Of a stretch of DNA of 41,046 nucleotides, positions 3,631 through 38,105 are shown one piece after another; position 1 is the first letter of the stretch; each line of letters opens with the position of its first letter. Location: positions 1 to 41,046 of the forward strand of contig JABXKU010000013.1 in the NCBI GenBank assembly GCA_013619105.1, read 5' to 3'. The position numbers were made by a program, and so were the translations under genes. Source of the DNA: Desulfuromonadales bacterium. GTDB taxonomy: Bacteria; Desulfobacterota; Desulfuromonadia; Desulfuromonadales; Syntrophotaleaceae. Below the pieces are notes generated by a model. That model did not search any database. It was not told where the DNA came from and saw only the letters and a list, made by a program, of their open reading frames with translations.

Positions 3631-4240
3631 TTATTTAGATCGACCGTTTAAGATTAAGGAAATCAGCGAGGACGGCACCTTTAGCGGCTACGGTTCAGTC
3701 TTTGATGAACTTGACAGCTATAAAGATGTCGTCGTTAAGGGGGCTTTTGTTAAGTCTCTGGAGCAAAAAAAGCCGTCATTACTGTGGCAGCACCGCAGCA
3801 GCGAGCCGGTCGGCGTCTATACCGAAGTGCGCGAAGACGACCATGGGTTGTTCGTTGCCGGGAAACTGGCGCTCAAGACGGCGCGAGGTATGGAGGCTTA
3901 CGAGCTGTTGAAGATGGGCGCTATCTCTGGCCTATCCATCGGCTACGTCACGATGGAGGACAATTACGACAGAGAAACCGGCATAACCACGCTGAAAGAG
4001 ATTGATTTGTGGGAGGTATCGCTAGTCACCTTTCCGGCCAACCACTCGGCGCGGGTATCGGCGGTAAAGAGCATTGACGAAATTGACACGCTGGCACAGG
4101 CGGAAGACTACTTGAGAGAGTCAGGTCTGTCGAAGTCTGAGGCGTGTCGCATAGTGGGCAAAGTGAAGGCCGTGGGTCTGAGAGAGTCCGACCTAAAGCA
4201 TGAGCTTGCCGCACTTGCAAAGAAACGAAGCGTTTTTTAA
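3623..4240 (+). CDS. HK97-family prohead protease
   Basis: 205 aa serine protease (U35/HK97 gp4-like) that cleaves scaffold or delta domain during head maturation. It has the family order: FSGYGSVFDELDSYKDVV near the N-terminus, then LLWQHRSSEPVG with the likely catalytic His, then GAISGLSIGY with the catalytic Ser, and finally LWEVSLVTFPAN. It sits between portal and capsid genes as in HK97. The C-terminal 60 residues are helical and may act as scaffold or targeting tail. Confidence 0.92.
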   Translation: MRDYLDRPFKIKEISEDGTFSGYGSVFDELDSYKDVVVKGAFVKSLEQKKPSLLWQHRSSEPVGVYTEVREDDHGLFVAGKLALKTARGMEAYELLKMGAISGLSIGYVTMEDNYDRETGITTLKEIDLWEVSLVTFPANHSARVSAVKSIDEIDTLAQAEDYLRESGLSKSEACRIVGKVKAVGLRESDLKHELAALAKKRSVF

Positions 4241-4250
4241 CCAATCATGA

Positions 4251-4264
4251 CTGTCGTGAGACAG
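4251..4264 (+). promoter_or_regulatory. GNRA-loop hairpin upstream of the capsid gene
   Basis: CTGTC-GTGA-GACAG, identical to the copy upstream of terL. It is followed at 4272-4283 by a second small hairpin, ACCC-GCAA-GGGT, also with a GNRA loop. Together they fill the leader between the protease stop and the capsid start at 4301. Confidence 0.6.
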
Positions 4265-4300
4265 CCAATCCCACCCGCAAGGGTAGATGGAGCTTTTACC

Positions 4301-5503
4301 ATGGAACAAGTTAAGACTTTGCTTGAATCTCAGGGCAAGGCGTTTGAAGCCTTCAAGGAGGCCAACGACGCCCGACTGAAAGCCATTGAGGAGAAGGGCT
4401 ATGCCCCCGCCGACCTGACCGAGAAGGTTGACGCCATCAACGCCGATCTTGCCAAGCTCGACAAGGACTATACCGAGTTTATCAAGAAGGCACAGCGCCC
4501 CGACGCTGGAGAGCTTGCCGAAGAGCAAGCCGAGCATGCAAAAGCATTCGACAAGCTCCTGCGTAAAGGCCGCGCTGATGACCTTGAAGCATTCAACACC
4601 AAGGCAATGAACGGCTTGTCCGACCCTGACGGAGGTTATTTGATCCTGCCGGAGATGGACAAGATCATTGAACGCATCGTGCCGACTATTTCCGCAATCG
4701 GTCGCCTTGCTTCCAATGTCACCATCGGCTCTGCCAAGTGGGAAAAGCTGATGAAAACTTCCGGCATGGCCATGCGGCGTGTTGCTGATGGCGGTACTGG
4801 CGGCGAAACCACCGAGCCGAAATATAGCAAGGTGGCGATTGAGGCTTTTGTGGCTGAAGTAGAGCCTTGGGTTTACAACGAAACCTTGGAAGACGCCTAT
4901 GTTAATTTGGCATCCGACCTGGCAGAAGAGGCGGGGATTGGCTTTGCTGAAGGCGCTGGGTCCGAGTTCGCTATTGGCGACGGCGTAGGTAAAGCAAAAG
5001 GTATCACCGCCTATACTACGGTTGCCAATGCCTCCTATGCTTGGGGTTCTGTTGGTTATATCGCGTCCGGCGCTGCCGGTGCGTTTGCTACCTCCGCTCC
5101 TGCTGACGAACTTGTTCAGCTCCAACATTCTCTCAAGCAGCAGTACCGCCCTGGTGCCGTGTTTGTTATGAGTGACGGCACCTTGTCTTCTGTGCGGCAA
5201 ATGAAGGACGGCAGCGGGTCTTATTACCTCTGGCAGTCTGACCCCACTGCTGGCTTCGGTGGTCGCCTGCTCGGTTCCCCGGTTGAGGTAGATGACAACA
5301 TGCCTACCATCGCCGCCAACAGCCTGTCTATCGCTTACGGCAACATCGCCAGAGCATACAAGGTGGTTAATCGCGCCGGAACGACCGTGATCCGCGACAA
5401 CATTACCTCGAAAGGGCAGACCAAGTTTAACTTCCGCCGCCGGTTCGGTGGAGGCATCTATAACTTTGAAGCCCTGAAGTTGATGAAATTCGCTGCATCG
5501 TAA
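4301..5503 (+). CDS. major capsid protein (HK97 fold)
   Basis: About 400 aa from ATG 4301. The N-terminus (MEQVKTLLESQGKAFEAFKE) is the helical delta/scaffold region common in HK97-type capsids, removed by the upstream protease. The mature shell domain begins near NTKAMNGLSDPDGGYLILPE and contains the usual EPKYSKVAIEAFVAEVEPWV segment. An in-frame ATG at 4247 exists, but the reading would then run through the leader hairpins, so 4301 is preferred. It is followed by a strong terminator. Confidence 0.92.
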   Translation: MEQVKTLLESQGKAFEAFKEANDARLKAIEEKGYAPADLTEKVDAINADLAKLDKDYTEFIKKAQRPDAGELAEEQAEHAKAFDKLLRKGRADDLEAFNTKAMNGLSDPDGGYLILPEMDKIIERIVPTISAIGRLASNVTIGSAKWEKLMKTSGMAMRRVADGGTGGETTEPKYSKVAIEAFVAEVEPWVYNETLEDAYVNLASDLAEEAGIGFAEGAGSEFAIGDGVGKAKGITAYTTVANASYAWGSVGYIASGAAGAFATSAPADELVQLQHSLKQQYRPGAVFVMSDGTLSSVRQMKDGSGSYYLWQSDPTAGFGGRLLGSPVEVDDNMPTIAANSLSIAYGNIARAYKVVNRAGTTVIRDNITSKGQTKFNFRRRFGGGIYNFEALKLMKFAAS

Positions 5504-10997: not shown

Positions 10998-13010
10998 ATG
11001 GCGCAAAAAGTCGGAAATCTGGTCGTCGAAATGTCGGCCAATGTCGCACGTTTGCAGCGCGACTTCAACAAGGCCAACAGCCAAGCTCAAGGCGTTGCCA
11101 GAAAATTCAAGTCCATCTTTAAGGGCGTTGGGCTGTCTATCGCTGCGGGACTGAGCGTGGTTGGGCTGAAAAGGGTTATTACCTCCTCCCTTAATGCCGC
11201 TGATGCCATCGCCAAGGGCGCAGCAAAAGCCAACATCGGCACAGGGGCATATCAGGAGTTGACCTTTGCGCTGGATAAGTTCGACGTGTCGCAGCAACAG
11301 GTATCATCGGGGCTTATGGCGTTCACAAAGCGTCTCGGTGAAGCGCGAGCCGGGACCGGAACCCTCGTAACTTTCCTAAAAAAGTACGACGAAGCGCTGC
11401 TTGATTCTTTAACTTCGGCAGAGTCCAACGAGCAGGCGCTAAACATCTTCATGGAGGCGCTAGGCGGGGTTAAAAACGATGCTGACCGTGCTGCCTTGTC
11501 TGCTGCTGCCTTCTCCCGTTCTGCTGGTGTAGGTATCGCAAGCGCCCTCAAAGATGGCGGCAAAGCCCTTGACCAGTGGCGCAAGAAGGCTCGCGATTTT
11601 GGCATTGTGGTTGACGCCGACATACTGGAAAAGGCCGAGGACGCAAAAGACCGCTTCGCCACGCTGGCACAGGTTGTCCAGTCGGAAACCATTGTCGCCA
11701 TGTCTGACCTGGTAGGCGTTCTTTCAAGCCCTGCGTTTTTGGATTCTTTAAGGGACGCCGTAAAGCTCACCGCAAGCCTTGCGAAAGTCATGGCTCTTCT
11801 TGCGTCAGGGCCAGAGGGTGTTTTTGCGGTTTTCCAGGCCGACATAGAAACCCTGCCGGAGCAAATCGCCACGGCAAGCGATGAGGTTGCCAAGTTTAAA
11901 GCCGAAGTCGCTCGAATGGAGGGGTCTATCTTCCCTGCGATATTCGGCGGGGAAATCGACAAGTTCAAGGAAAAACTACATTGGGCAGAAAACAACCTGA
12001 AAAGGTTGACCAAGCTCAAGGAACAAGCAGCGGCGCTAAACAAACCTGATGGCGCGGCTGGCGTTAATGGCGGGACAACAGCCACACAAACAAACGAAAC
12101 GGCTGCAAAAGTTATAGAAGCCCTGCGTTTCGAGCAAGAGCAGTTAAACCGGCTGATAAAAGACGGCGCGATTGAGCAGGAGGTTTATAACAATCTCAAA
12201 AAGGCTGGCGTAACGATCAACAGCGATACGGGACGCACCATCGCGGTCTTGGTTCGTGGGTTGGAGCAGCAAAAGGCGGCACAGAACGCCGCCAAGGATG
12301 CCGCCATTGCCCACTCAGCAGCCCTGGTGAAGCAGGCAGAAGACAGCCAGCTTTTAGCAATCAGGGCGGCTGAGATTTACGAGTCGTTAAAAAGTCCGCG
12401 AGACGCCTTCGAGGAAGGGATAGCGGAACTTGACCTGCTGAAAGAGGTCGGGCTTATCGACCCGGCAACCTACACGGCGGCATTTAACCGGCTTGGCGAC
12501 GACTTTGCCTCTACCGTGGACAGGGTGAAAGACTCCACCACAGAACTGTCGGAGTTTACCAAAGAGGCGTTTCGCTCCATGCAGAATGTCGCCTCGGATT
12601 TCTTTTTCGACACCTTGGAAGGCAATTTTACCGACTTGGGCGATTCCTTCCGCACGATGGTCAACCGGATGCTCGCGGATTGGGCCTCAGTCAAGATGAT
12701 GGGTGGGCTGTTCGGTAAGGATTTCGGCAAGACCGGCGAACTGGGCGGGATGCTCGGCAGCATCTTCGGCGGTGCTCGCGCCCTTGGTGGGCCTGTTTCG
12801 GCGGGCAGTGCTTACCTGGTCGGGGAACGTGGTCCTGAACTGTTCATGCCGCAGACTTCCGGCAATGTGGTCGCCAACAACAAGCTAGGCGGCGGCACCT
12901 CGATTAGCGTACCAATCGGCAACATCGACGGCGGCAGCAAGCAACTGCTGGCGAACCTGCCGGGGATGATTGAAAACGCAGTCCTTGAATCAATGCGGAG
13001 ATATGCCTGA
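10998..13010 (+). CDS. tape measure protein
   Basis: 670 aa, the tail-length ruler and a component ejected with DNA. The N-terminus (ARLQRDFNKANSQAQGVARKFKSIFKGVG) is the helical start common to tape measures, followed by a hydrophobic segment, then coiled-coil-rich middle with GVGIASALKDGGKALDQWRKKA typical of the TP901/lambda-type group. The C-terminus contains GLFGKDFGKTGELGGMLGS and ARALGGPVSAGSAYLVGERG, as in phage_tail_S/lambda gpH-like ends. From its length a tail of about 100 nm is expected (1.5 angstrom per residue rule). Confidence 0.92.
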   Translation: MAQKVGNLVVEMSANVARLQRDFNKANSQAQGVARKFKSIFKGVGLSIAAGLSVVGLKRVITSSLNAADAIAKGAAKANIGTGAYQELTFALDKFDVSQQQVSSGLMAFTKRLGEARAGTGTLVTFLKKYDEALLDSLTSAESNEQALNIFMEALGGVKNDADRAALSAAAFSRSAGVGIASALKDGGKALDQWRKKARDFGIVVDADILEKAEDAKDRFATLAQVVQSETIVAMSDLVGVLSSPAFLDSLRDAVKLTASLAKVMALLASGPEGVFAVFQADIETLPEQIATASDEVAKFKAEVARMEGSIFPAIFGGEIDKFKEKLHWAENNLKRLTKLKEQAAALNKPDGAAGVNGGTTATQTNETAAKVIEALRFEQEQLNRLIKDGAIEQEVYNNLKKAGVTINSDTGRTIAVLVRGLEQQKAAQNAAKDAAIAHSAALVKQAEDSQLLAIRAAEIYESLKSPRDAFEEGIAELDLLKEVGLIDPATYTAAFNRLGDDFASTVDRVKDSTTELSEFTKEAFRSMQNVASDFFFDTLEGNFTDLGDSFRTMVNRMLADWASVKMMGGLFGKDFGKTGELGGMLGSIFGGARALGGPVSAGSAYLVGERGPELFMPQTSGNVVANNKLGGGTSISVPIGNIDGGSKQLLANLPGMIENAVLESMRRYA

Positions 13011-13378
13011 TGGCAAGAATGGTTTTGGGATCGTACACCTTTGAGGACAACCCGACCTCTGTTAGCGACTTAATGACGCCGGAGCGCAAGAGCGCCTTTG
13101 TCGAAACTTACTCGTCAGGAGCGTTTTTTAGTTGGGGCGCATCCATCGGCGGCAAGCCGGTAGAACTGACCTGGACGCAGACCTCGGTCGATCAATACGG
13201 TGAACTGCAAACACTATTAGTAGCTGCCGCGGCGGTGGTTTTCAGCCCGCAAGACGGCGAAGGCAAGACCTACAACGTCGAAGTAACCGCCTTGCACGGC
13301 GAATACTGGCTTTATTTGTCCGGTTCGTATCGTCAGAACGTGACCCTCTCCCTGCTCGTTTTGAGCGAGGTGGCTTAA
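13010..13378 (+). CDS. tail-tip associated protein
   Basis: 122 aa, beta-rich, between tape measure and the large tail-tip protein, where minor tail or distal tail proteins are found. Start overlaps the previous stop (TGATG) and stop overlaps the next start. A short structural protein at the tail tip is likely; no family motif recognised with certainty. Confidence 0.7.
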   Translation: MARMVLGSYTFEDNPTSVSDLMTPERKSAFVETYSSGAFFSWGASIGGKPVELTWTQTSVDQYGELQTLLVAAAAVVFSPQDGEGKTYNVEVTALHGEYWLYLSGSYRQNVTLSLLVLSEVA

Positions 13379-16300
13379 TGGCATTAACGCTCGATTCAAC
13401 ATTGCAGACCGCGCAGGACGGCGACAATCACCGGCCCGTCTGCTCGCTGACCGTGGGCAAGAGCGTGGACGACTATCCGCTGACCGGCAGTTACATCACC
13501 CATGATAACGACCAGGATTGCTCGCAGCCGCTGCTGCTGAGTGACGGCCGGATGGCCATTGTCCATAGCGGCCTCGGTTGGAACGGCGATAACAAGGAAC
13601 TGCGGGTGGTCTTCTCCGACACGGAACAGACCACCTTTGATGCCTTTGTCGCTGTGGACGATGAAACCTACGAGGTGATCGAAAACATCGATGCCGTGGT
13701 GCTGGACGACTCCGACACCATCGGCGTGATCTGCACCCGGCGCAACAGCACCGACTTAGATGTCCAGGCCTACAAGGTCAGCAGTGCCGGGGTCAAACTG
13801 TCTGGTAATCTGGTCAAGGATTCGGACACGGCTTATTTCAGTTCGGGCGTGGCGGCGCTGAAAAAAGGCACTAACGATTTTGCCGCCTTCTGGCCGGAAG
13901 CGACGGACGGCACCAACTGGTACATTTACATGTCCGCTTCGACGGACTTCTCGACCTGGGGCGGTCCCGCCGCCCGGGCGATTGGCGGACTGACCAGCAC
14001 CCGCATAATCAAAGACCCGAAGATCCTCAAGCTCGCCGACAACAGCTATTTCATGGTGTTCAGTTACGAGAGCACCAAGAACGATTCCGGCTCTATCTAT
14101 AACCTCTATTACACCACCAGTTCCGACCTGTCCACCTGGGCTGATGCGGTCGCCATCACGACCAACGCCAACATGAGCAAGGACTTCAGCAAGCCAGACT
14201 TGGTGCAAAAGAGTGACGGCACCTTGACGGTATCTGCCTTGGACCAGAACACCTCCATGTATAAGGATGCATCAGATATTACAGGCGTCAGCCGATTCAA
14301 TCTCGGCTCCTGTTGGTATTCATCCTCTACGGGCAAGCTGTACTTTGCCGGAGGCAGTGTCAGTGACAACCACGCCTTTGGTGCTGTAATCGACCTCGCC
14401 ACCTTTGTTGTCGAGAAATATTACACCAATACAACCACTCCTGCTATTCCCGATTACTTCTGGGAGGATGCGCACGGCACCTCGAACAGCTTGGGCGAAG
14501 AACATCTTATCGTTCTCGTTGCCAGCGAGGGCGTCTGCATTATCGACACCGATGCGGACACCATTACGCCCTATTATTTTACAGACCTATCCGCAACGCA
14601 TGGTGCTGGGGCTGCTCTCAATGTAAATATTGATCGACCCACTGACGGGTGGTACGGCACTTTCCCCAGTAATATTGCTTTTGCACAAGTGGATGCAGCG
14701 GCCAATCGCCTTTATGTGTGCCTAAGCTCAGCCTATTATTACAATCATGAAATATTGTTTGGATATATTGACCTAACTGACACCACTCCAAACTATGATT
14801 TTGTTGTGCTTGTTGAGGATTATTCTGGCGCCGATGGCCGTACTGTATTCACAAAAGCTAAATTCTATCCAGATGATGATCTATTTGTCGCAGTACGGGC
14901 TAGTGGCGATGCGAGTGGTGCAGGTTATTTAAAGATGTGGTCACCATCTGAAGACGCCTTGCTGAAACAGTATGAGCGCACAGCTTATCCAGAATTTCCA
15001 CATGGCGGGTTTTATGATGTTATCTATGCCAATGGAAAAGTGTGGGCATTGGTCAACTGGGAAGATGATTATGCCTCAGATGTGTATAAGAAGGGTTTGG
15101 CAGAAATTGATCTGGACACAGATCAAATAATCTACCATGAACCCACCTGGTTCGATGCGGCTAATAATGGCCTACAGCACATGTCTTACTCCGCTAGTAC
15201 CACTGAACTGATAATGTGGGGTGAGGAAGGCCTCGCGGTATTCAACATTGCCACCTACGCCTGGACTTCTTATGCAAACTTGATTGATTGTGACAGCGGC
15301 CATCCGAATTGGACGCCGATCTACTACCCGGCTGCGGATGTATTCTTTCTCCCTTACCAAACAGGAGGCGGAGTCAGCGCCGATGGCCGACTATACATGC
15401 TGCCCCGAAATGGAACCTTGGATATTGCGAGGTATGTGGAGGGAACCTTCACGACCAGCTGGGCATTTTCAGATATTGAAACTCTAGTATATGGATATAA
15501 GGCCTCTGAGCTGGCCTTGACTGTACAGGATGATGATTCCATTTATTTCTCTTGGACGGATAGCACAAATGCAGAATCTTGGATTAAGTGGGACAAGACA
15601 GGCGCGGAACTAGACCTGTTGCCATACCTGACCGGCGAAACGGCCACATTATGGAGCATCGAAGGTTCTCCCAACCGGCTGGACCTTACCCTCAGCCACG
15701 GGCATCTGTTCGACCCGGCCAATACCAACTCCATCCTGAATTTCTATCTGCAAAAGGGTAGCAAGGTGGTTCTGCGCTTTGGCGAGACGGTTTCAACGGT
15801 CGATTACTACGCTAATCAGGGCAGTTTTTTAATCTCAGAGATTTCCACCGTCTACCAGAAAGGCACATATCCGCTGGCCAAGGTCGTCGCCCATGACCGC
15901 AGGTGCCTGTGGGATGCTCACGAAGTCGATGTGTCGGCGCTGTCGGAAACCTATCCCGAAGACGCCATCAAGAACCTTGTGACCGCTGAGATGGGCGACA
16001 CCACCGACGACTACGACCTGCCGACCTTCGCAGGGCGCTTTTCTTTCGACGCCCAGTGGATCGACACGCGACTTAAAGACATCGTCGAGCAAATCGCCAA
16101 CCGCTTCGGCTGTTTCTTGACGGTGGACGTGGACGACAAGCTCACCGCACGGCTAATCTCCGACAGCAACGCCGTGGACCATGCCTACACGGACACGACG
16201 CAGATTATCAATTTCACCCCCGACGACACCTTTTCCGATTTCGTCAACCGCATCGTCGTCACCGGGGAAAGCCTCACCTATACCGAGGTGCTTTACGACG

Positions 16301-17058
16301 AGGAACGCATCACCGGCAAGGCTGGCACGATTGGGTGGTGGGGCTGCAAGAAAGACCAAACGGTCTGGTACAGCGACGACCAGAGCCGCAGGGTGCGCTT
16401 CCCGCGCCTGGAGGTCTTGGAGAGCGCCAGCAGTATCGCGTTCCAAATGGCCGGGGATGTGCGCGAGAGCATTACCGAGATCGACGAGGATGATCTGTAC
16501 TGCGTGGTAGAGATTGACGCGCCTAATCTTATCCCGATGCTGGTCAGCGGCACCGCCATGTATTTTGCCGGAAACAAGCTAGGCGATGTAACGGTGGGTA
16601 TCGGCGGCGGCTATACAATCCCTTACGGGCGACTCATCGAAGGCGTCGGCCTTTATGCGGCGCTGATGGTCCTCGGCTCAGTGGGCAATTATCAGTATGA
16701 AGTCTACGGTAGGCCGGTGGGCTATGTGCGCCGCTCGGTGTCAGGGCAGGCCGACGATTTAGAGTTGCAACAGCGCATCGGCACGGTAGTCGTCAATAAG
16801 ATCGAAGGGTTTTTGACCGACACCGCCGCCCGCTGCACGAACGTAGCCGAGTTTGAATTGATGCTGGCCCGGCTCCAGCGAAGCCGCGCCAAGCTGACCA
16901 AAGTGGCTCACTTGCAGGACCAAGTCGGGGATACCATCACCTTTCCCCATCCGCACACCGGCAACACGGTCAAAATGTTTATTACCGACATTAAGCGGAA
17001 ATACAAGCCGACCAAGGACGGCCATTTTCTCGATGAGATCGAAGGGTGGGTACTCTAA
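13378..17058 (+). CDS. large tail-tip/baseplate hub protein with propeller-like insert
   Basis: 1226 aa. The part after about residue 755 (LWSIEGSPNRLDLTLSHGHL, then LKDIVEQIANRFGCFLTVD and IINFTPDDTFSDFVNRIVV) looks like a gp44/hub-type baseplate protein. Residues about 40-750 consist of repeating beta strands with Ser/Asp/Trp-rich turns (e.g. STDFSTWGGP, SSDLSTWADA), as in BNR/sialidase-like propellers, so a glycan-binding or cleaving domain is inferred. The DNA for about 14250-15620 is AT-richer than the rest (45 GC in 14701-14820), suggesting a swapped receptor domain. Confidence 0.8.
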   Translation: MALTLDSTLQTAQDGDNHRPVCSLTVGKSVDDYPLTGSYITHDNDQDCSQPLLLSDGRMAIVHSGLGWNGDNKELRVVFSDTEQTTFDAFVAVDDETYEVIENIDAVVLDDSDTIGVICTRRNSTDLDVQAYKVSSAGVKLSGNLVKDSDTAYFSSGVAALKKGTNDFAAFWPEATDGTNWYIYMSASTDFSTWGGPAARAIGGLTSTRIIKDPKILKLADNSYFMVFSYESTKNDSGSIYNLYYTTSSDLSTWADAVAITTNANMSKDFSKPDLVQKSDGTLTVSALDQNTSMYKDASDITGVSRFNLGSCWYSSSTGKLYFAGGSVSDNHAFGAVIDLATFVVEKYYTNTTTPAIPDYFWEDAHGTSNSLGEEHLIVLVASEGVCIIDTDADTITPYYFTDLSATHGAGAALNVNIDRPTDGWYGTFPSNIAFAQVDAAANRLYVCLSSAYYYNHEILFGYIDLTDTTPNYDFVVLVEDYSGADGRTVFTKAKFYPDDDLFVAVRASGDASGAGYLKMWSPSEDALLKQYERTAYPEFPHGGFYDVIYANGKVWALVNWEDDYASDVYKKGLAEIDLDTDQIIYHEPTWFDAANNGLQHMSYSASTTELIMWGEEGLAVFNIATYAWTSYANLIDCDSGHPNWTPIYYPAADVFFLPYQTGGGVSADGRLYMLPRNGTLDIARYVEGTFTTSWAFSDIETLVYGYKASELALTVQDDDSIYFSWTDSTNAESWIKWDKTGAELDLLPYLTGETATLWSIEGSPNRLDLTLSHGHLFDPANTNSILNFYLQKGSKVVLRFGETVSTVDYYANQGSFLISEISTVYQKGTYPLAKVVAHDRRCLWDAHEVDVSALSETYPEDAIKNLVTAEMGDTTDDYDLPTFAGRFSFDAQWIDTRLKDIVEQIANRFGCFLTVDVDDKLTARLISDSNAVDHAYTDTTQIINFTPDDTFSDFVNRIVVTGESLTYTEVLYDEERITGKAGTIGWWGCKKDQTVWYSDDQSRRVRFPRLEVLESASSIAFQMAGDVRESITEIDEDDLYCVVEIDAPNLIPMLVSGTAMYFAGNKLGDVTVGIGGGYTIPYGRLIEGVGLYAALMVLGSVGNYQYEVYGRPVGYVRRSVSGQADDLELQQRIGTVVVNKIEGFLTDTAARCTNVAEFELMLARLQRSRAKLTKVAHLQDQVGDTITFPHPHTGNTVKMFITDIKRKYKPTKDGHFLDEIEGWVL

Positions 17059-27583: not shown

Positions 27584-27711
27584 GTTATTCAACCCTACTA
27601 ACCGAGATACGCAGCCGCCGCGGCAGTAGCCACGCCCTGTTGATATTTCGCCGGGACAACCAGCAGATTCCGGTGTCTAAGTGGAACGCGGCAGTTAAGG
27701 AGGCCGTTTGA
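27580..27711 (+). CDS. small basic protein
   Basis: 43 aa, ATGA overlap with the nuclease. Basic (EIRSRRGSSH, FRRDNQQ). Its stop TGA overlaps the TTGAATG start region of the next two frames, and its end holds the aaggagg site used there. Confidence 0.5.
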   Translation: MSYSTLLTEIRSRRGSSHALLIFRRDNQQIPVSKWNAAVKEAV

Positions 27712-28409
27712 ATGAGTTGGCACTATTTGCAGGGGCCGGAGGAGGAATCCTGGGAGGGAAACTCCTTGGATGGCACACCGTCTGCGCTGTTGAATTTGCT
27801 GAATATCCCAGAAGAGTGCTCCTTGCTCGCCAGCGGGACGGACTGCTGCCAAGGTTCCCAATCTGGGACGATGTGCGAACCTTCGACGGTAGACCGTGGG
27901 AAGGGCAAGTCGATGTTATCTCTGGCGGGTTCCCGTGCCAAGACATTAGCGCAGCGGGATCGGGAGAAGGGCTCGACGGAGAGCGAAGCGGGCTCTGGGT
28001 GGAAATGGCCAGGATCATTCGTGAAGTACGACCTCGCCACGTCTTCGTGGAAAACTCGCCAATGCTCACTTCTAGAGGGCTTGGACGAGTTCTCGGAGAC
28101 TTGGCCGAAATGGGGTTCGATGCGCGATGGGGAGTGCTTGGCGCTCACCACGTTGGAGCCTGCCACAAAAGAGAACGCATCTGGATTCGTGCCGACTCCC
28201 TTGGCCAACGATTGGAAGGGGGGGGCGAAGTCGGGGCGAGACAGCGAGTTCAAACACTGGTTGAAGCGGAGACATGGGGGAACCTATCCGAACCCCCGAC
28301 GTGTAGAGGAAATGATGCAGTGGCCAATCGGGTGGACAGAACTAGAGCCCTTGGCAACGGACAAGTTCCGCGAGTGGCAGCACTCGCATGGAGACTGTTG
28401 ACAGCATAA
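27708..28409 (+). CDS. C5 cytosine DNA methyltransferase (short form)
   Basis: 233 aa. Dcm-type motifs in order: I LALFAGAGGGILGG, IV GGFPCQDIS with catalytic Cys, VI VENSPML, VIII HKRERIW and X RALGNGQVP. The target-recognition region is very short, so this is a mini-methyltransferase. It probably protects phage DNA from host restriction. TTG 27708 is only 4 nt from aaggagg. Overlapped nearly fully by the +1 frame at 27712. Confidence 0.87.
   Translation: MNELALFAGAGGGILGGKLLGWHTVCAVEFAEYPRRVLLARQRDGLLPRFPIWDDVRTFDGRPWEGQVDVISGGFPCQDISAAGSGEGLDGERSGLWVEMARIIREVRPRHVFVENSPMLTSRGLGRVLGDLAEMGFDARWGVLGAHHVGACHKRERIWIRADSLGQRLEGGGEVGARQRVQTLVEAETWGNLSEPPTCRGNDAVANRVDRTRALGNGQVPRVAALAWRLLTA
27712..28401 (+). 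CDS. dual-frame ORF nested in the methyltransferase gene
   Basis: 229 codons without a stop in the +1 frame of the methyltransferase. ATG 27712 lies 8 nt after aaggagg, a better distance than for the methyltransferase TTG. The protein (e.g. FSETWPKWGSMRDGE and QWPIGWTELEPLATDKF) resembles a widely annotated phage protein that I recall from many genomes, always of this length. It may be a true overprinted gene or a conserved shadow of methyltransferase codons. Confidence 0.5.
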   Translation: MSWHYLQGPEEESWEGNSLDGTPSALLNLLNIPEECSLLASGTDCCQGSQSGTMCEPSTVDRGKGKSMLSLAGSRAKTLAQRDREKGSTESEAGSGWKWPGSFVKYDLATSSWKTRQCSLLEGLDEFSETWPKWGSMRDGECLALTTLEPATKENASGFVPTPLANDWKGGAKSGRDSEFKHWLKRRHGGTYPNPRRVEEMMQWPIGWTELEPLATDKFREWQHSHGDC

Positions 28410-34834: not shown

Positions 34835-35199
34835 TGGATTGGAGACAACGCAAGAAGGTATTTCTCGCTGCGCTGGAAGTCCTAGAACTGTCTCACCATG
34901 CCACCGCCTGCGGCATGACGCGCAAGTTTGACGAACTGGCCGAGTTTGTGAAGGATGGCGGCAAGCTACAAAGCGGGGCGCTGTTCGTAACGGCAGCGCG
35001 AGGGAGTAACCACACTTGGCTTGATTGGGCGGTGGACTTCCTGGGATGCCTGCCCGCCGACGAGAAGCAGCGCCGGAAGATTTACCTTGCCTACAAAGGG
35101 GACGGAGAACACGACCGCTGGGCAGTTCGGAGGTTTTGGGATGATGTGGCGGCGAAGAAACTAGACACAGCGGGGCTGGCGATTGCGAGGGCAATGTGA
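34834..35199 (+). CDS. hypothetical early protein
   Basis: 121 aa from ATG 34834, after cggagg. Mixed helical protein (QRKKVFLAALEVLELSHHA, then LDWAVDFLGCLPADEKQRRK and DRWAVRRFWDDVAAKKL). Overlaps the next GTG start by 4 nt. No family recognised. Confidence 0.6.
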   Translation: MDWRQRKKVFLAALEVLELSHHATACGMTRKFDELAEFVKDGGKLQSGALFVTAARGSNHTWLDWAVDFLGCLPADEKQRRKIYLAYKGDGEHDRWAVRRFWDDVAAKKLDTAGLAIARAM

Positions 35200-35591
35200 C
35201 AAATGGCCGGATTTATCACAGGTTTGAAAAGTGGGAAGAGTATCACGCGGGCATGTGGAGGATTCCAAGCAAGACAGAACAGCGAGAGCTTTTGCCAATA
35301 GCTGTAGCTTTGATAAAAGACACCAAGGCTTTCAGCGCGGCAATGATGGAGGTAGTTGAAAAATGGCCATTCTCATGTGAGCACAACTTGACCAACCTAG
35401 ATAGCAACCGAGTGGCGTGGATAGGGCAAGCTGCTTGCTGTTTGGTCACAGGATGCACGGAGGACGTAACAAGGAGGGCATGGGGGCTTGTTTCCGACGA
35501 AGAGCGCCACGGGGCAAATATGGAGGCCGAAGCAGCCATAGAAAGATGGAGGGTTGGGCGTGAAGGGGAGAATCTCAAGCTATTTAGTTAG
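35196..35591 (+). CDS. hypothetical early protein
   Basis: 131 aa, GTG start coupled to the previous stop. Segments FEKWEEYHAGMWRIP, NRVAWIGQAACCLVTGCTEDVTRRAW and ERWRVGREGE are typical of a small helical early phage protein seen in other genomes; function not known. Overlaps the following cassette gene by 32 nt. Confidence 0.6.
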   Translation: MTNGRIYHRFEKWEEYHAGMWRIPSKTEQRELLPIAVALIKDTKAFSAAMMEVVEKWPFSCEHNLTNLDSNRVAWIGQAACCLVTGCTEDVTRRAWGLVSDEERHGANMEAEAAIERWRVGREGENLKLFS

Positions 35592-35799
35592 TTGGGGCAA
35601 TAAGGGCTATAATGGTAATATACCAGAAGAGGCACCGATCAAACTTGAGGCGGCAAACAAGGCCCCATCATACAGGGCGATATGCAGGGCTATTCTTAAA
35701 AACGACACAAACCTTGCAACTTTAGGGTTTACGGTTAAAAAGTGCGAGGCTTATTCAGTTTTAAAACGAATAGAGATAGAGGCGAGGGGGAGGAAATGA
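35560..35799 (+). CDS. small protein homologous to the C-terminus of the DUF3440 protein
   Basis: 79 aa from GTG 35560 (aagg upstream). Its residues about 38-60 (PSYRAICRAILKNDTNLATL, then GF) align with PTYKRMCVCIMKNDHLCKYM then GF near the end of the next protein: Y, C, K-N-D and G-F are shared. It is thus a free copy of the DUF3440 C-terminal domain. First gene of the cassette; a TATAAT at 35608-35613 lies inside it. Confidence 0.7.
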   Translation: MKGRISSYLVSWGNKGYNGNIPEEAPIKLEAANKAPSYRAICRAILKNDTNLATLGFTVKKCEAYSVLKRIEIEARGRK

Positions 35800-37085
35800 A
35801 TGTTTATGAGGCGGCTAAAGAAAGAATAAAGTTTGTTTTTGAAGAGTTCGACAACGTGTATGTATCTTTCAGCGGCGGTAAGGACAGCGGTGTGTTGTTG
35901 CACCTGTGCATAGACTATATCAGGGAACACGCACCACACAGGAGAATGGGCGTTTTCCACATAGACTACGAAGCGCAGTATCAAATGACCACAGACTATG
36001 TTGACCTTGAGTTGTCGAAAAACAGGGACATTATAGACGTGTACCGGGTTTGCTTACCCTTGGCCGCTGCTTGTGCCACAAGTATGTATAGCGACCACTG
36101 GATACCTTGGGACGCCGACAAAAAAGATATTTGGGTGCGTGATTTACCAGAAGAGAGTATTAACGAAGATAACCACGAATTCTCATGGTTTAAAAAAGGC
36201 ATGAGGGATTACGATTTTCAAGAAAGGTTTTCTTTGTGGTTCCATAAGAAGAACAAAGCCAAGAAAACTGCCTGTCTAGTTGGGGTTAGGACTCAAGAGA
36301 GCTTCAACCGATGGCGGGCCATCTACAGCGACCGCAACCAAAACAAGTACAAGGACCGGAGCTGGACGCTTGAGCTACACGAGAACGTGTGCAACGCTTA
36401 CCCTGTGTTCGATTGGAAGGTTGAAGACGTTTGGACCGCCAACGCAAGGCAGGGGTGGGAGTACAACAAGCTGTATGACATTTTCTATCAGGCAGGGCTG
36501 ACTCTAGGGCAAATGAGGGTAGCAAGCCCCTTTCATGATTGCGGAATGGAAAACCTGAAAATGTATAAAGTCATTGATCCCGGCAATTGGGGAAAGATGA
36601 TCGGCAGGACAAACGGGGTCAACTTTGCGGGGCTTTACGGCGGCACAACCGCTATGGGGTGGAAGTCGATAAAGCTGCCACCAGGGCATACATGGAAGAG
36701 TTACATGGAGTTTTTATTAACAACTCTTCCAGGCGAAGCCCGCGAAAACTATAAAAAAAAGCTCCTTGCCAGTATGGCTTTCTGGAAAAACAAGGGAGGT
36801 TGCCTTTCTGAAGAGGTAATCAAGAAGCTGAAAGACAAAGATGTTGATTTTGTCGTTGGTGAAGCAACAAATTACCGCACCACTAAACTGCCAGTAACGA
36901 TGGAATACCTTGATGATATTGACATTGATGAGTTTAGGGAAATCCCGACATATAAGCGGATGTGTGTCTGCATCATGAAAAACGACCACCTGTGCAAGTA
37001 CATGGGGTTCTCGTTAACCAAAACAGAAACCGAACTAAGGGCGACGGCTGAACGCAAGTATGCGAAGCTGAAGAAAGGGGGGTGA
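35796..37085 (+). CDS. DUF3440 PP-loop protein (IbrA/PAPS-reductase-like)
   Basis: 429 aa from ATG 35796 (gggggagg upstream). N-terminal ATP-pyrophosphatase PP-loop SFSGGKDSG at about 24-32, as in PAPS reductases and DndC. Further segments ACLVGVRTQESFNRW, DWKVEDVWTAN, LTLGQMRVASPFHDCG and a C-terminal KND domain are those of DUF3440/IbrA proteins. It probably adenylates a substrate; no classical PAPS-reductase C-terminal Cys motif is seen. In E. coli IbrA acts with ParB-like IbrB, found here two genes on. AT-rich (42 GC in 36121-36240). Confidence 0.85.
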   Translation: MNVYEAAKERIKFVFEEFDNVYVSFSGGKDSGVLLHLCIDYIREHAPHRRMGVFHIDYEAQYQMTTDYVDLELSKNRDIIDVYRVCLPLAAACATSMYSDHWIPWDADKKDIWVRDLPEESINEDNHEFSWFKKGMRDYDFQERFSLWFHKKNKAKKTACLVGVRTQESFNRWRAIYSDRNQNKYKDRSWTLELHENVCNAYPVFDWKVEDVWTANARQGWEYNKLYDIFYQAGLTLGQMRVASPFHDCGMENLKMYKVIDPGNWGKMIGRTNGVNFAGLYGGTTAMGWKSIKLPPGHTWKSYMEFLLTTLPGEARENYKKKLLASMAFWKNKGGCLSEEVIKKLKDKDVDFVVGEATNYRTTKLPVTMEYLDDIDIDEFREIPTYKRMCVCIMKNDHLCKYMGFSLTKTETELRATAERKYAKLKKGG

Positions 37086-37089
37086 TGGT

Positions 37090-37512
37090 GTGAAAATCAC
37101 GGAATATGAGTTTGGCGAAGAAGGCAAAAGTTGCAGGCTGCTTGTGCTGGTCTGGAAGTGGGTTTTGTCGAAACAGGTTCATGAAGAACTAGGCATGGCG
37201 ATTACTAGTGATAGCGGTGACGTTTGGCTGGTAGCGACAGAGGAAGAAACGCCCGTCGGGTTTACGCAGATCAGGGTGTTGAAGAACAAGAAAGCCCACA
37301 TAAGGTATCTGTTCGGAGAAACGAAGGTAGCCAGGAGAAGGCTTGCCAGAGAATCTGAGGTTGTAGCTTGTAGGCTCGGCTGCTTGAGCATGTTTACAAA
37401 CGACAGGGAAGAGGTCAGGGTGTGGGAGTCGTTAGGCTATAACGCGGCTCCTGGCGCGAGACGGGGGAGGTTTGTAAGATGGGAAAAGGAAATAAAAGCG
37501 GGGGGTGCATGA
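37090..37512 (+). CDS. GNAT-family acyltransferase
   Basis: 140 aa, GTG start 5 nt after the previous stop. GNAT fold indications: EEETPVGFTQIRVLKNKKAHIRYLF for strands 3-4, a basic acyl-CoA loop region (KVARRRLARESEVVA) and the C-terminal VWESLGY motif. The Q-x-x-G-x-G loop is degenerate. Between IbrA- and IbrB-like genes with ATGA overlap, so part of the same system. Mu Mom is a GNAT-fold DNA modifier, offering one model. Confidence 0.65.
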   Translation: MKITEYEFGEEGKSCRLLVLVWKWVLSKQVHEELGMAITSDSGDVWLVATEEETPVGFTQIRVLKNKKAHIRYLFGETKVARRRLARESEVVACRLGCLSMFTNDREEVRVWESLGYNAAPGARRGRFVRWEKEIKAGGA

Positions 37513-38030
37513 AGAGTCCAGTTTATAACGTCAAGGCTGTTCCCTTGGAGAAGATAAGGGCAAACACCTACAACCCGAACGCGGTAGCCCCTCCTGAAAT
37601 GGAGCTTCTGGAAATCTCGATATGGGAGGACGGCTTTACGATGCCGGTTGTCTGCTACTATGTCGAAGCCGAAGATATGTATGAAATCGTTGACGGCTAT
37701 CACCGCTATACAACGATGCTGACAAGCAAGAGAATCAGGGAGCGTGAAAACGGTCTGCTGCCCGTTGCGGTTATAGACAAAGACGAAACAAACCGGATGG
37801 CCTCAACCGTCCGGCACAACAGGGCTAGAGGTTCGCACTCGATAGAGCTAATGTCTAATATCGTTGCAGAACTTACAACCGCAGGCATGAGCGATGCGTG
37901 GATATTGCGCCATGTCGGCATGGACAAGGATGAGCTATTGAGGCTAAAGCAGGTAACGGGGCTTGCTGCGCTGTTTAAAGACTCTTCTTTTAGCGAAGCT
38001 GAAAATAAAAAGACAGGCACGGAAGGCTGA
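37509..38030 (+). CDS. ParB-like nuclease-domain protein (IbrB-like)
   Basis: 173 aa from ATG 37509. ParB/Srx fold: VYNVKAVPLEKIRANTYNPNAV, then SIWEDGFTMPVVCYY and EIVDGYHRYTTML (GxxR-like box with HR), RMASTVRHNRARGSH. The order PP-loop then ParB is that of IbrA-IbrB. In known ParB proteins this fold binds CTP or ATP, so it may be an NTP-dependent DNA-binding or modifying partner. Ends the early operon before a terminator. Confidence 0.85.
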   Translation: MKSPVYNVKAVPLEKIRANTYNPNAVAPPEMELLEISIWEDGFTMPVVCYYVEAEDMYEIVDGYHRYTTMLTSKRIRERENGLLPVAVIDKDETNRMASTVRHNRARGSHSIELMSNIVAELTTAGMSDAWILRHVGMDKDELLRLKQVTGLAALFKDSSFSEAENKKTGTEG

Positions 38031-38037
38031 ACAGGTC

Positions 38038-38067
38038 AGGGGGTGTTTATTCGCCCCCTCTTTTTTT
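38038..38067 (+). terminator. Rho-independent terminator of the early operon
   Basis: AGGGGGTG-TTTATT-CGCCCCCT 8-bp stem with one T-G wobble, a C, then seven T. Eight bases after the IbrB-like stop. Confidence 0.9.
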
Positions 38068-38105
38068 GTGCAAAATGCAAAATACTGATATACTTAAAAG
38101 TTTTC

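Follow-up and report, generated by a model that had tools for sequence, protein, structure and literature searches.

The closest described relatives of the system reported here are IbrA and IbrB of Escherichia coli and its phages, a pair that in E. coli reportedly co-activates prophage eib genes and for which we know of no mechanism. Phage IbrA and IbrB are named in passages of PMC4490671 and PMC8813620, and according to a passage of PMC9068703 the E. coli K-12 genes ybdN and ybdM (DUF3440 and ParB-like genes) form an operon repressed by CitR. The combination of a PP-loop enzyme with a ParB-superfamily partner is also seen in the DndC/DndB phosphorothioation genes, as outlined in part of PMC10853773, and one bacterial ParB-acetyltransferase fusion binds GTP (PMC12704722, in part), so that such partnerships exist elsewhere. 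The window analysed here, the whole 41,046-bp contig JABXKU010000013.1 of a 3.3 Mb Desulfuromonadales draft genome, carries an ibrA-ibrB pair within a run of five genes. Comparison of 241 loci shows that this phage operon consists of the known pair, a strictly linked accessory made of a small protein, X, and a DUF3440 C-terminal domain, and one alternative partner. IbrA-IbrB is a known phage pair and the core of the cassette is therefore not new.

Terminase, capsid, tape measure, integrase and DnaB-like helicase genes are all encoded on the window, which identifies it as a prophage or phage contig. The operon, X-mini-ibrA-GNAT-ibrB, lies on one strand and ends in a terminator:

35196..35591, plus strand: X, a member of an all-helical family, 131 amino acids; family profile match on the window 6.2e-45.
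35560..35799, plus strand: mini, a stand-alone DUF3440 C-terminal domain (PF11922 positions 143-179), with a likely GTG start at 35560.
35796..37085, plus strand: ibrA, a PP-loop domain of the PAPS-reductase type (residues ~1-233) followed by DUF3440 (234-413), with a C-terminus of the long type.
37090..37512, plus strand: GNAT-fold partner gene, 140 amino acids, assigned by family profile comparison; canonical acetyl-CoA loop missing.
37509..38030, plus strand: ibrB, a ParB/Srx-fold protein of 173 amino acids, in ATGA overlap with the GNAT stop.
38038..38067, plus strand: intrinsic terminator, a G+C-rich hairpin followed by a U run.

X and mini overlap by 32 bases, the mini/ibrA and GNAT/ibrB junctions are ATGA overlaps, and a gap of 4 bases separates ibrA from the GNAT gene. 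A sequence-only reading of this DNA had described four coupled genes, mini, IbrA, GNAT-like and IbrB, closed by a strong terminator. All are present on one strand, and the terminator region (38026-38070) folds at -16.7 kcal/mol with a z of -3.03, equal stability being reached in 1 of 200 shuffles. The extent given for the cassette was too small, because X, upstream of and overlapping the mini, had been missed; the ParB-fold assignment of IbrB stands, with a likely start at 37509 in place of 37479. The G+C count of 42 in 120 bases at 36121-36240 was given correctly, and the ~60% given for the tail genes was not, as the tail region (10998-17058) measures 54%. G+C content is 46.4% in ibrA, 48.2% over 35196-38030 and 54.1% in the window, and no 1290-bp window outside the cassette is as poor in G+C as ibrA. 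The low value of the cassette is consistent with separate acquisition. A search of 277 genomes belonging to the class of the window gave a single strong IbrA, the window's own (707.6 bits), and weak matches elsewhere reach at most 38.4 bits.

The window shares with the E. coli/phage pair (phrog_2302/phrog_2159; PF11922) the protein families, their adjacency and order, the union of PP-loop and DUF3440, and the ParB fold. Unlike that pair, the window has X, a separate mini, a GNAT gene that separates ibrA from ibrB, and an IbrA of the long type; no X or partner was recognised in the 6 kb examined of E. coli phage PhiR5_2 (locus L071). Mycobacterium phage Nebkiss (L068), Pseudoalteromonas phage XCL1123 (L069) and the 90,460-bp contig L221 carry ibrA, ibrB, X and mini as the window does, whereas an EctC-like cupin stands where the window has the GNAT and is fused to IbrB in Nebkiss and L221. 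Bacteroidota loci have a homologous GNAT-fold gene adjoining ibrA, as in the window, but upstream of ibrA rather than between ibrA and ibrB. X was detected in 2 of the 66 loci with a GNAT, the window being one of them.

The 241 loci are non-redundant, one per IbrB at 97% identity, and include that of the window (L067); they form a non-random sample in which each scan retained at most its best 80 matches. IbrA matched 217 and IbrB 218 records of the phage collection, with the same leading host genera; many of these records are near-identical and some were already annotated as IbrA/IbrB. Where both genes are present, ibrA precedes ibrB in 228 of 229 loci, a count that still includes the repeats of one contig. 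IbrB was missing from three of the 66 loci retrieved with IbrA; each of these has an ibrA that reaches the end of the stretch or stops within 20 bases of it. Loci fetched by X brought B-X-A arrangements, and the final set comprises 217 A-B and 24 B-A loci. Two genomes, G289 and G290 (loci L140 and L148), encode two full-length ibrA each, with an upstream GNAT at only one copy.

The window IbrA matches the Pfam models DUF3440 (1.7e-87) and PAPS_reduct (8.9e-16), in agreement with its original description as an IbrA-like PP-loop protein with DUF3440. The expectation that the PP-loop residues are conserved was borne out, as SxGKDS is found in 232 of 234 near-complete IbrA proteins and GxRxxESxxR in all 234. 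The AlphaFold model of IbrA (mean pLDDT 89.4) has a PAPS-reductase-type PP-loop fold, with matches to FAD synthase (Z 16.3), the CysD subunit of ATP sulfurylase (15.3) and APS reductase (15.3); these matches cover residues 1-267, so the C-terminal part was scarcely probed by that list. IbrB matches phrog_2159 at 7.7e-77, and a PDB search with its profile retrieves Noc, ParB, SbnI and free serine kinase (3e-5 to 0.014). DGxHR is kept in 240 and RHNRARG in 238 of the 241 IbrB proteins; the former contains GxxR, named in part of PMC12704722 as the phosphate motif of the ParB-CTPase/Srx fold. We infer that IbrA is an adenylating enzyme with IbrB as its nucleotide-binding partner.

X has no Pfam match and an insignificant best PHROG match (E 0.29). 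Its AlphaFold model (pLDDT 94.8) is all-helical, and comparison with the PDB gave nothing significant (best Foldseek E 2.4, best VIA-align Z 3.9), from which a new fold is not implied. In an X-only scan of viral contigs, ibrA or ibrB lies within 6 kb of X in 79 of 80 loci, these being the best 80 of 592 matches, some on contigs already in the set; the sole X locus without either gene (L294) lies on a contig that ends inside X. Of the phage-collection records, all six with X have ibrA as well. The mini, correctly recognised in the sequence-only reading as a DUF3440 C-terminal mini-protein, matches Pfam at 3.7e-5 with 24 bits, against a cut-off of 25. Among the 209 non-redundant loci available before the X scan, X was present in 53, mini in 53 and both in 52, always adjoining, and the X-mini unit may precede ibrA and ibrB, follow them or lie between them. 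The 53 minis, that of the window included, share Pro-Ser-Tyr (94%), an Asn at position 396 (100%) and a Leu (87%) where IbrA has Cys400 (92%). Many loci from the X scan have no separate mini; their IbrA is of a shorter type, with a mini-like C-terminus of its own ('GIPDE').

When the full mini-type domain is counted, whether separate or within IbrA, 99 of the 241 loci have both X and the domain, 2 have X without it, 1 has the domain without X and 139 have neither. Thus, the domain is found in 99 of 101 loci with X and in 1 of 140 without. The cut-offs behind this count (a tighter E-value and a somewhat reduced span) were chosen after the exceptions had been viewed; the first profile cut-offs gave 98 with both, 3 with X only, 6 with the domain only and 134 with neither, the domain-only six being L071 and the weak matches L101, L103, L190, L197 and L198. 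The 188 representatives up to L232 gave 47, 1, 1 and 139, respectively. The earliest count used a five-letter motif and left ten apparent exceptions, which comprise seven motif variants, a fusion (L033, where the mini is in frame with IbrA), a truncated contig (L243) and a read-on open reading frame (ORF; L255); the profile criterion took its place. The final X-only loci are L158, whose short mini ORF corresponds to the second half of the profile, and L243, at a contig end, and the final domain-only locus is E. coli phage L071. The association was also examined on a FastTree phylogeny of the first 335 residues of IbrA, using the first cut-offs. Of eight supported independent pairs that differ in X, a mean of 6.9 show the domain changing in the same direction and 0.0 in the opposite direction (median p 0.016, range 0.016-0.070). 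These results are most simply read as X requiring the mini-type domain, which phages supply separately where the C-terminus of their IbrA has diverged. In the stop-to-stop frame L255:4071-5333, the mini (4137-4331) continues into a frame of 421 amino acids. Median dN/dS ratios of 0.33-0.56 for mini, X, cupin and GNAT, with values >1 in single pairs, were set aside because many pairs were near saturation and the pairs were not independent.

The window GNAT is matched weakly by Pfam directly (E 0.08), and at most 4 of the 36 members of its family match any single Pfam GNAT model at 0.01, so the assignment rests on profile comparison. The family profile aligns with that of clear, Pfam-positive GNATs at 97.6% in hhalign, and its best PDB profile match has an E of 0.003; type 2 and type 3 GNATs match Pfam GNAT models at 2.7e-7 or lower in the three tested. 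The acetyl-CoA loop of GNATs follows the pattern [QR]xxGx[GA], and near misses such as RxxGxF occur in some type 2 and type 3 proteins. The fold proposed in the sequence-only reading therefore stands, while the label of acyltransferase is doubtful because the window protein lacks the usual loop. It may be a non-catalytic GNAT-fold subunit.

GNAT-fold genes occur in 66 of the 241 loci, 58 upstream of ibrA and 9 between ibrA and ibrB (L175 has both), and 55 of 71 genome loci proved, with broader profiles, to have a homologous gene immediately upstream of ibrA. By recorded organism, loci with such a gene number 54 of 58 in Bacteroidota, 1 of 4 in Bacillota, 1 of 1 in Verrucomicrobiota, 0 of 7 in Pseudomonadota and 0 of 1 in Actinomycetota. 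Twenty whole Bacteroidota genomes were picked from the 80 fetched genome loci and thus contain ibrAB by choice; in 19 of them the GNAT profile has one match, always 4-41 bases upstream of ibrA and none elsewhere, the match in G283 having an in-frame stop. In the phage collection, ibrA is present in all four records with the GNAT. Earlier searches were negative: direct single-protein searches with the window GNAT found no relative in the phage collection or viral contigs, and a two-sequence GNAT alignment found none in the genome contigs. Likewise, the L055 and L034 proteins and the two-sequence alignment found only their own contigs among the viral contigs, and the two proteins had no match in the phage collection. 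These negatives were misleading, because the broader profile then found homologues upstream of ibrA. The GNAT is dedicated to ibrAB yet not constant. The sequence-only reading had asked whether it is a constant partner; it is not absent from related loci, but 39 of the 241 have a cupin instead and 130 no recognised partner.

The gap between ibrA and ibrB is empty in 157 of the 217 A-B loci. Where it is filled, it holds a cupin as a separate gene (17), fused to IbrB (16) or together with X-mini (4), a GNAT (8), a methyltransferase (3), a PD-(D/E)XK protein (3), X-mini alone (1), frame-broken ibrA pieces (3) or unassigned sequence (5); the apparent minis in the slot of L064, L143 and L145, as well as L125, are such pieces and were kept as pieces. 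Across the 241 loci there are 39 EctC-like cupins, 3 methyltransferases and 4 PD-(D/E)XK proteins. The three cupins tested match Ectoine_synth at 1.8e-44 to 1.7e-35, and the EctC-like motifs, which are active-site residues, are kept in 33 of 39. The PD-(D/E)XK assignment comes from PDDEXK_1 matches just below the cut-off (2e-4, 2e-3), and that of the methyltransferase from weak Pfam matches (7e-4, 8e-6, none) and one PHROG match at 4.5e-19. GNAT and cupin co-occur in no locus, against 10.7 expected under independence, which relatedness among the loci violates. On the IbrA tree the partner state changes 20 times and the GNAT 13 times, the latter number being inflated if divergent GNATs went undetected. 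In the phage collection, ibrA accompanies the cupin in all four records checked of five. An association of X with the cupin was dropped, as only one independent tree pair lay behind it. The sole locus with two partner types is L171:3408-5051, which has the methyltransferase between ibrA and ibrB and the PD-(D/E)XK protein after ibrB. A long ORF, judged helicase-like by eye only, lies directly or closely upstream of ibrA in 11 loci without an upstream GNAT (L034, L055, L082, L101, L121, L134, L135, L140, L146, L149 and L153), and Pika and Nebkiss have an annotated DNA helicase upstream of ibrA.

Text searches of the literature, excluding bioRxiv and most subscription papers, returned nothing that links GNAT, cupin or X to ibrAB. 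The rule that ties X to the DUF3440 C-terminal domain and the interchangeable partners did not appear there, in contrast to the known pair itself.

The explanation that we favour, at a little short of an even chance, is an ATP-using core of IbrA and IbrB, with swappable partners that set its output and with X and the DUF3440 C-terminal domain as an accessory. IbrA, as an enzyme of the ATP-pyrophosphatase type, would adenylate a target, and IbrB would be the nucleotide-binding ParB/Srx-fold subunit; the two would act as a single complex on a nucleic acid or a nucleotide-linked substrate. The alternative partner, whether GNAT-fold, EctC-like cupin, methyltransferase or nuclease-like, would alter or deliver the product. 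X would dock on the short-type ('GIPDE') domain, which on this proposal is why a separate mini is found in phages whose IbrA has lost the short-type form. The outcome would be changed expression of phage or host genes, such as has been reported for ibrAB in E. coli, or protected phage nucleic acid. A bolder form of this idea, rather unlikely as it stands, is a modular phage modification system in which a shared intermediate is built on a nucleic acid or nucleotide by the adenylating pair, the partner decides the product, and X with the DUF3440 C-terminal adapter directs the complex.

Several observations weigh against a core with exchangeable outputs. The 130 loci without a recognised partner indicate that the core can stand alone. 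The acetyl-CoA loop is present in 3 of 68 ibrAB-linked GNATs and missing from that of the window, which weakens the adenylate-plus-acyl chemistry suggested in the sequence-only reading. The cupin forms essentially one clade, with two changes on the tree, and the lack of GNAT/cupin overlap is therefore partly a matter of descent. To our knowledge, eib co-activation is the only published function of IbrAB, and no covalent product has been described.

In the main rival, a somewhat unlikely one, IbrA-IbrB is solely a pair of transcription co-activators, the other genes are phage-specific co-regulators and nothing is covalently modified. It draws on the reported activation of eib genes by E. coli IbrAB. 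The CitR-repressed ybdN/ybdM operon (PMC9068703, in part) and the frequent use of ParB-fold proteins as NTP-dependent switches (PMC12704722, in part) also favour it, but a pure scaffold would have no need of the PP-loop and the arginine motif that IbrA keeps in 232 and 234 of 234 proteins, and EctC-like cupins are among the alternative partners, 33 of the 39 having motifs that resemble an active site. It is improbable that the partner genes are unrelated morons at a tolerant site of the operon: phage cargo is often inserted between operon genes, the contents vary and 130 of 241 loci have no partner, yet the GNAT profile matched only beside ibrA in the 20 ibrAB-bearing genomes (19 matches), ibrA accompanies X in 6 of 6 and GNAT in 4 of 4 phage-collection records, cupins are fused to IbrB, and GNAT and cupin never occur together.

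The homology of the mini to the end of IbrA and its place beside ibrA in the window could also mark it as a dead remnant of an older ibrA that has been replaced. The 53 minis, however, take several positions relative to ibrAB and share the Cys400-to-Leu change and the invariant Asn, and X and mini are both present in 52 of 54 loci with either; such an origin is very improbable, although decay of a mini can happen, as the short ORF of L158 illustrates. There is only a slight chance that IbrA is the sulfur-transfer enzyme of a Dnd-kind DNA phosphorothioation system. A DndC model gives a weak, partial match (7e-7, 26.6 bits), and the ParB-fold partner recalls DndB, but among 199 IbrA proteins only Cys86 (98%) and Cys400 (92%) reach 90% conservation, Cys390 stands at 81%, and CxxC occurs in 6 of 234; no cysteine dyad is evident from these columns and counts, as distinct from a residue-level mapping. 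A PADLOC scan of four cassette proteins found no cysteine desulfurase, DndD or DndE among them. Least probable of all is an auxiliary sulfur-metabolism gene, a true phosphoadenosine phosphosulfate (PAPS) reductase, which the PHROG and record annotations and the PAPS-reductase fold would suggest. The catalytic cysteine motif of PAPS reductase (CysH), ECG[ILV]H, is missing from all 234 IbrA proteins, for which reason this identity was rejected, and neither the ParB-fold partner nor the DUF3440 domain fits it.

Outside the cassette, neither the first 15 bases of the contig nor the last 15 have a second copy inside the window. An HNH endonuclease gene lies at one end and the terminase at the other, which would fit a complete phage genome. 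A stretch of ~690 bp has two plus-strand frames that each match phage protein families: 27708-28409 encodes a C5 cytosine methylase (PF00145 2.3e-28, phrog_363 2.2e-63), and 27712-28401, in the +1 frame, matches the DNA methyltransferase family phrog_1008 (1.9e-20) and phrog_35493 (9.4e-10) and has no Pfam match. The two frames are a possible case of nearly complete gene overlap.

Phage ibrAB genes are often annotated as a sulfur-metabolism gene and a partition protein. The linkage rules make the favoured explanation of an ATP-using core with swappable partners testable: it predicts that the short-type DUF3440 C-terminal domain is bound by X and that replacing the GNAT with the cupin alters an ibrAB-dependent product. 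The cultured phages Nebkiss (M. smegmatis mc2 155) and XCL1123 carry ibrA, ibrB, X, mini and cupin. If the bolder form of the explanation, the modular modification system, is true, IbrA-IbrB and its partners would constitute an undescribed biochemical pathway in phages and prophages of several phyla.

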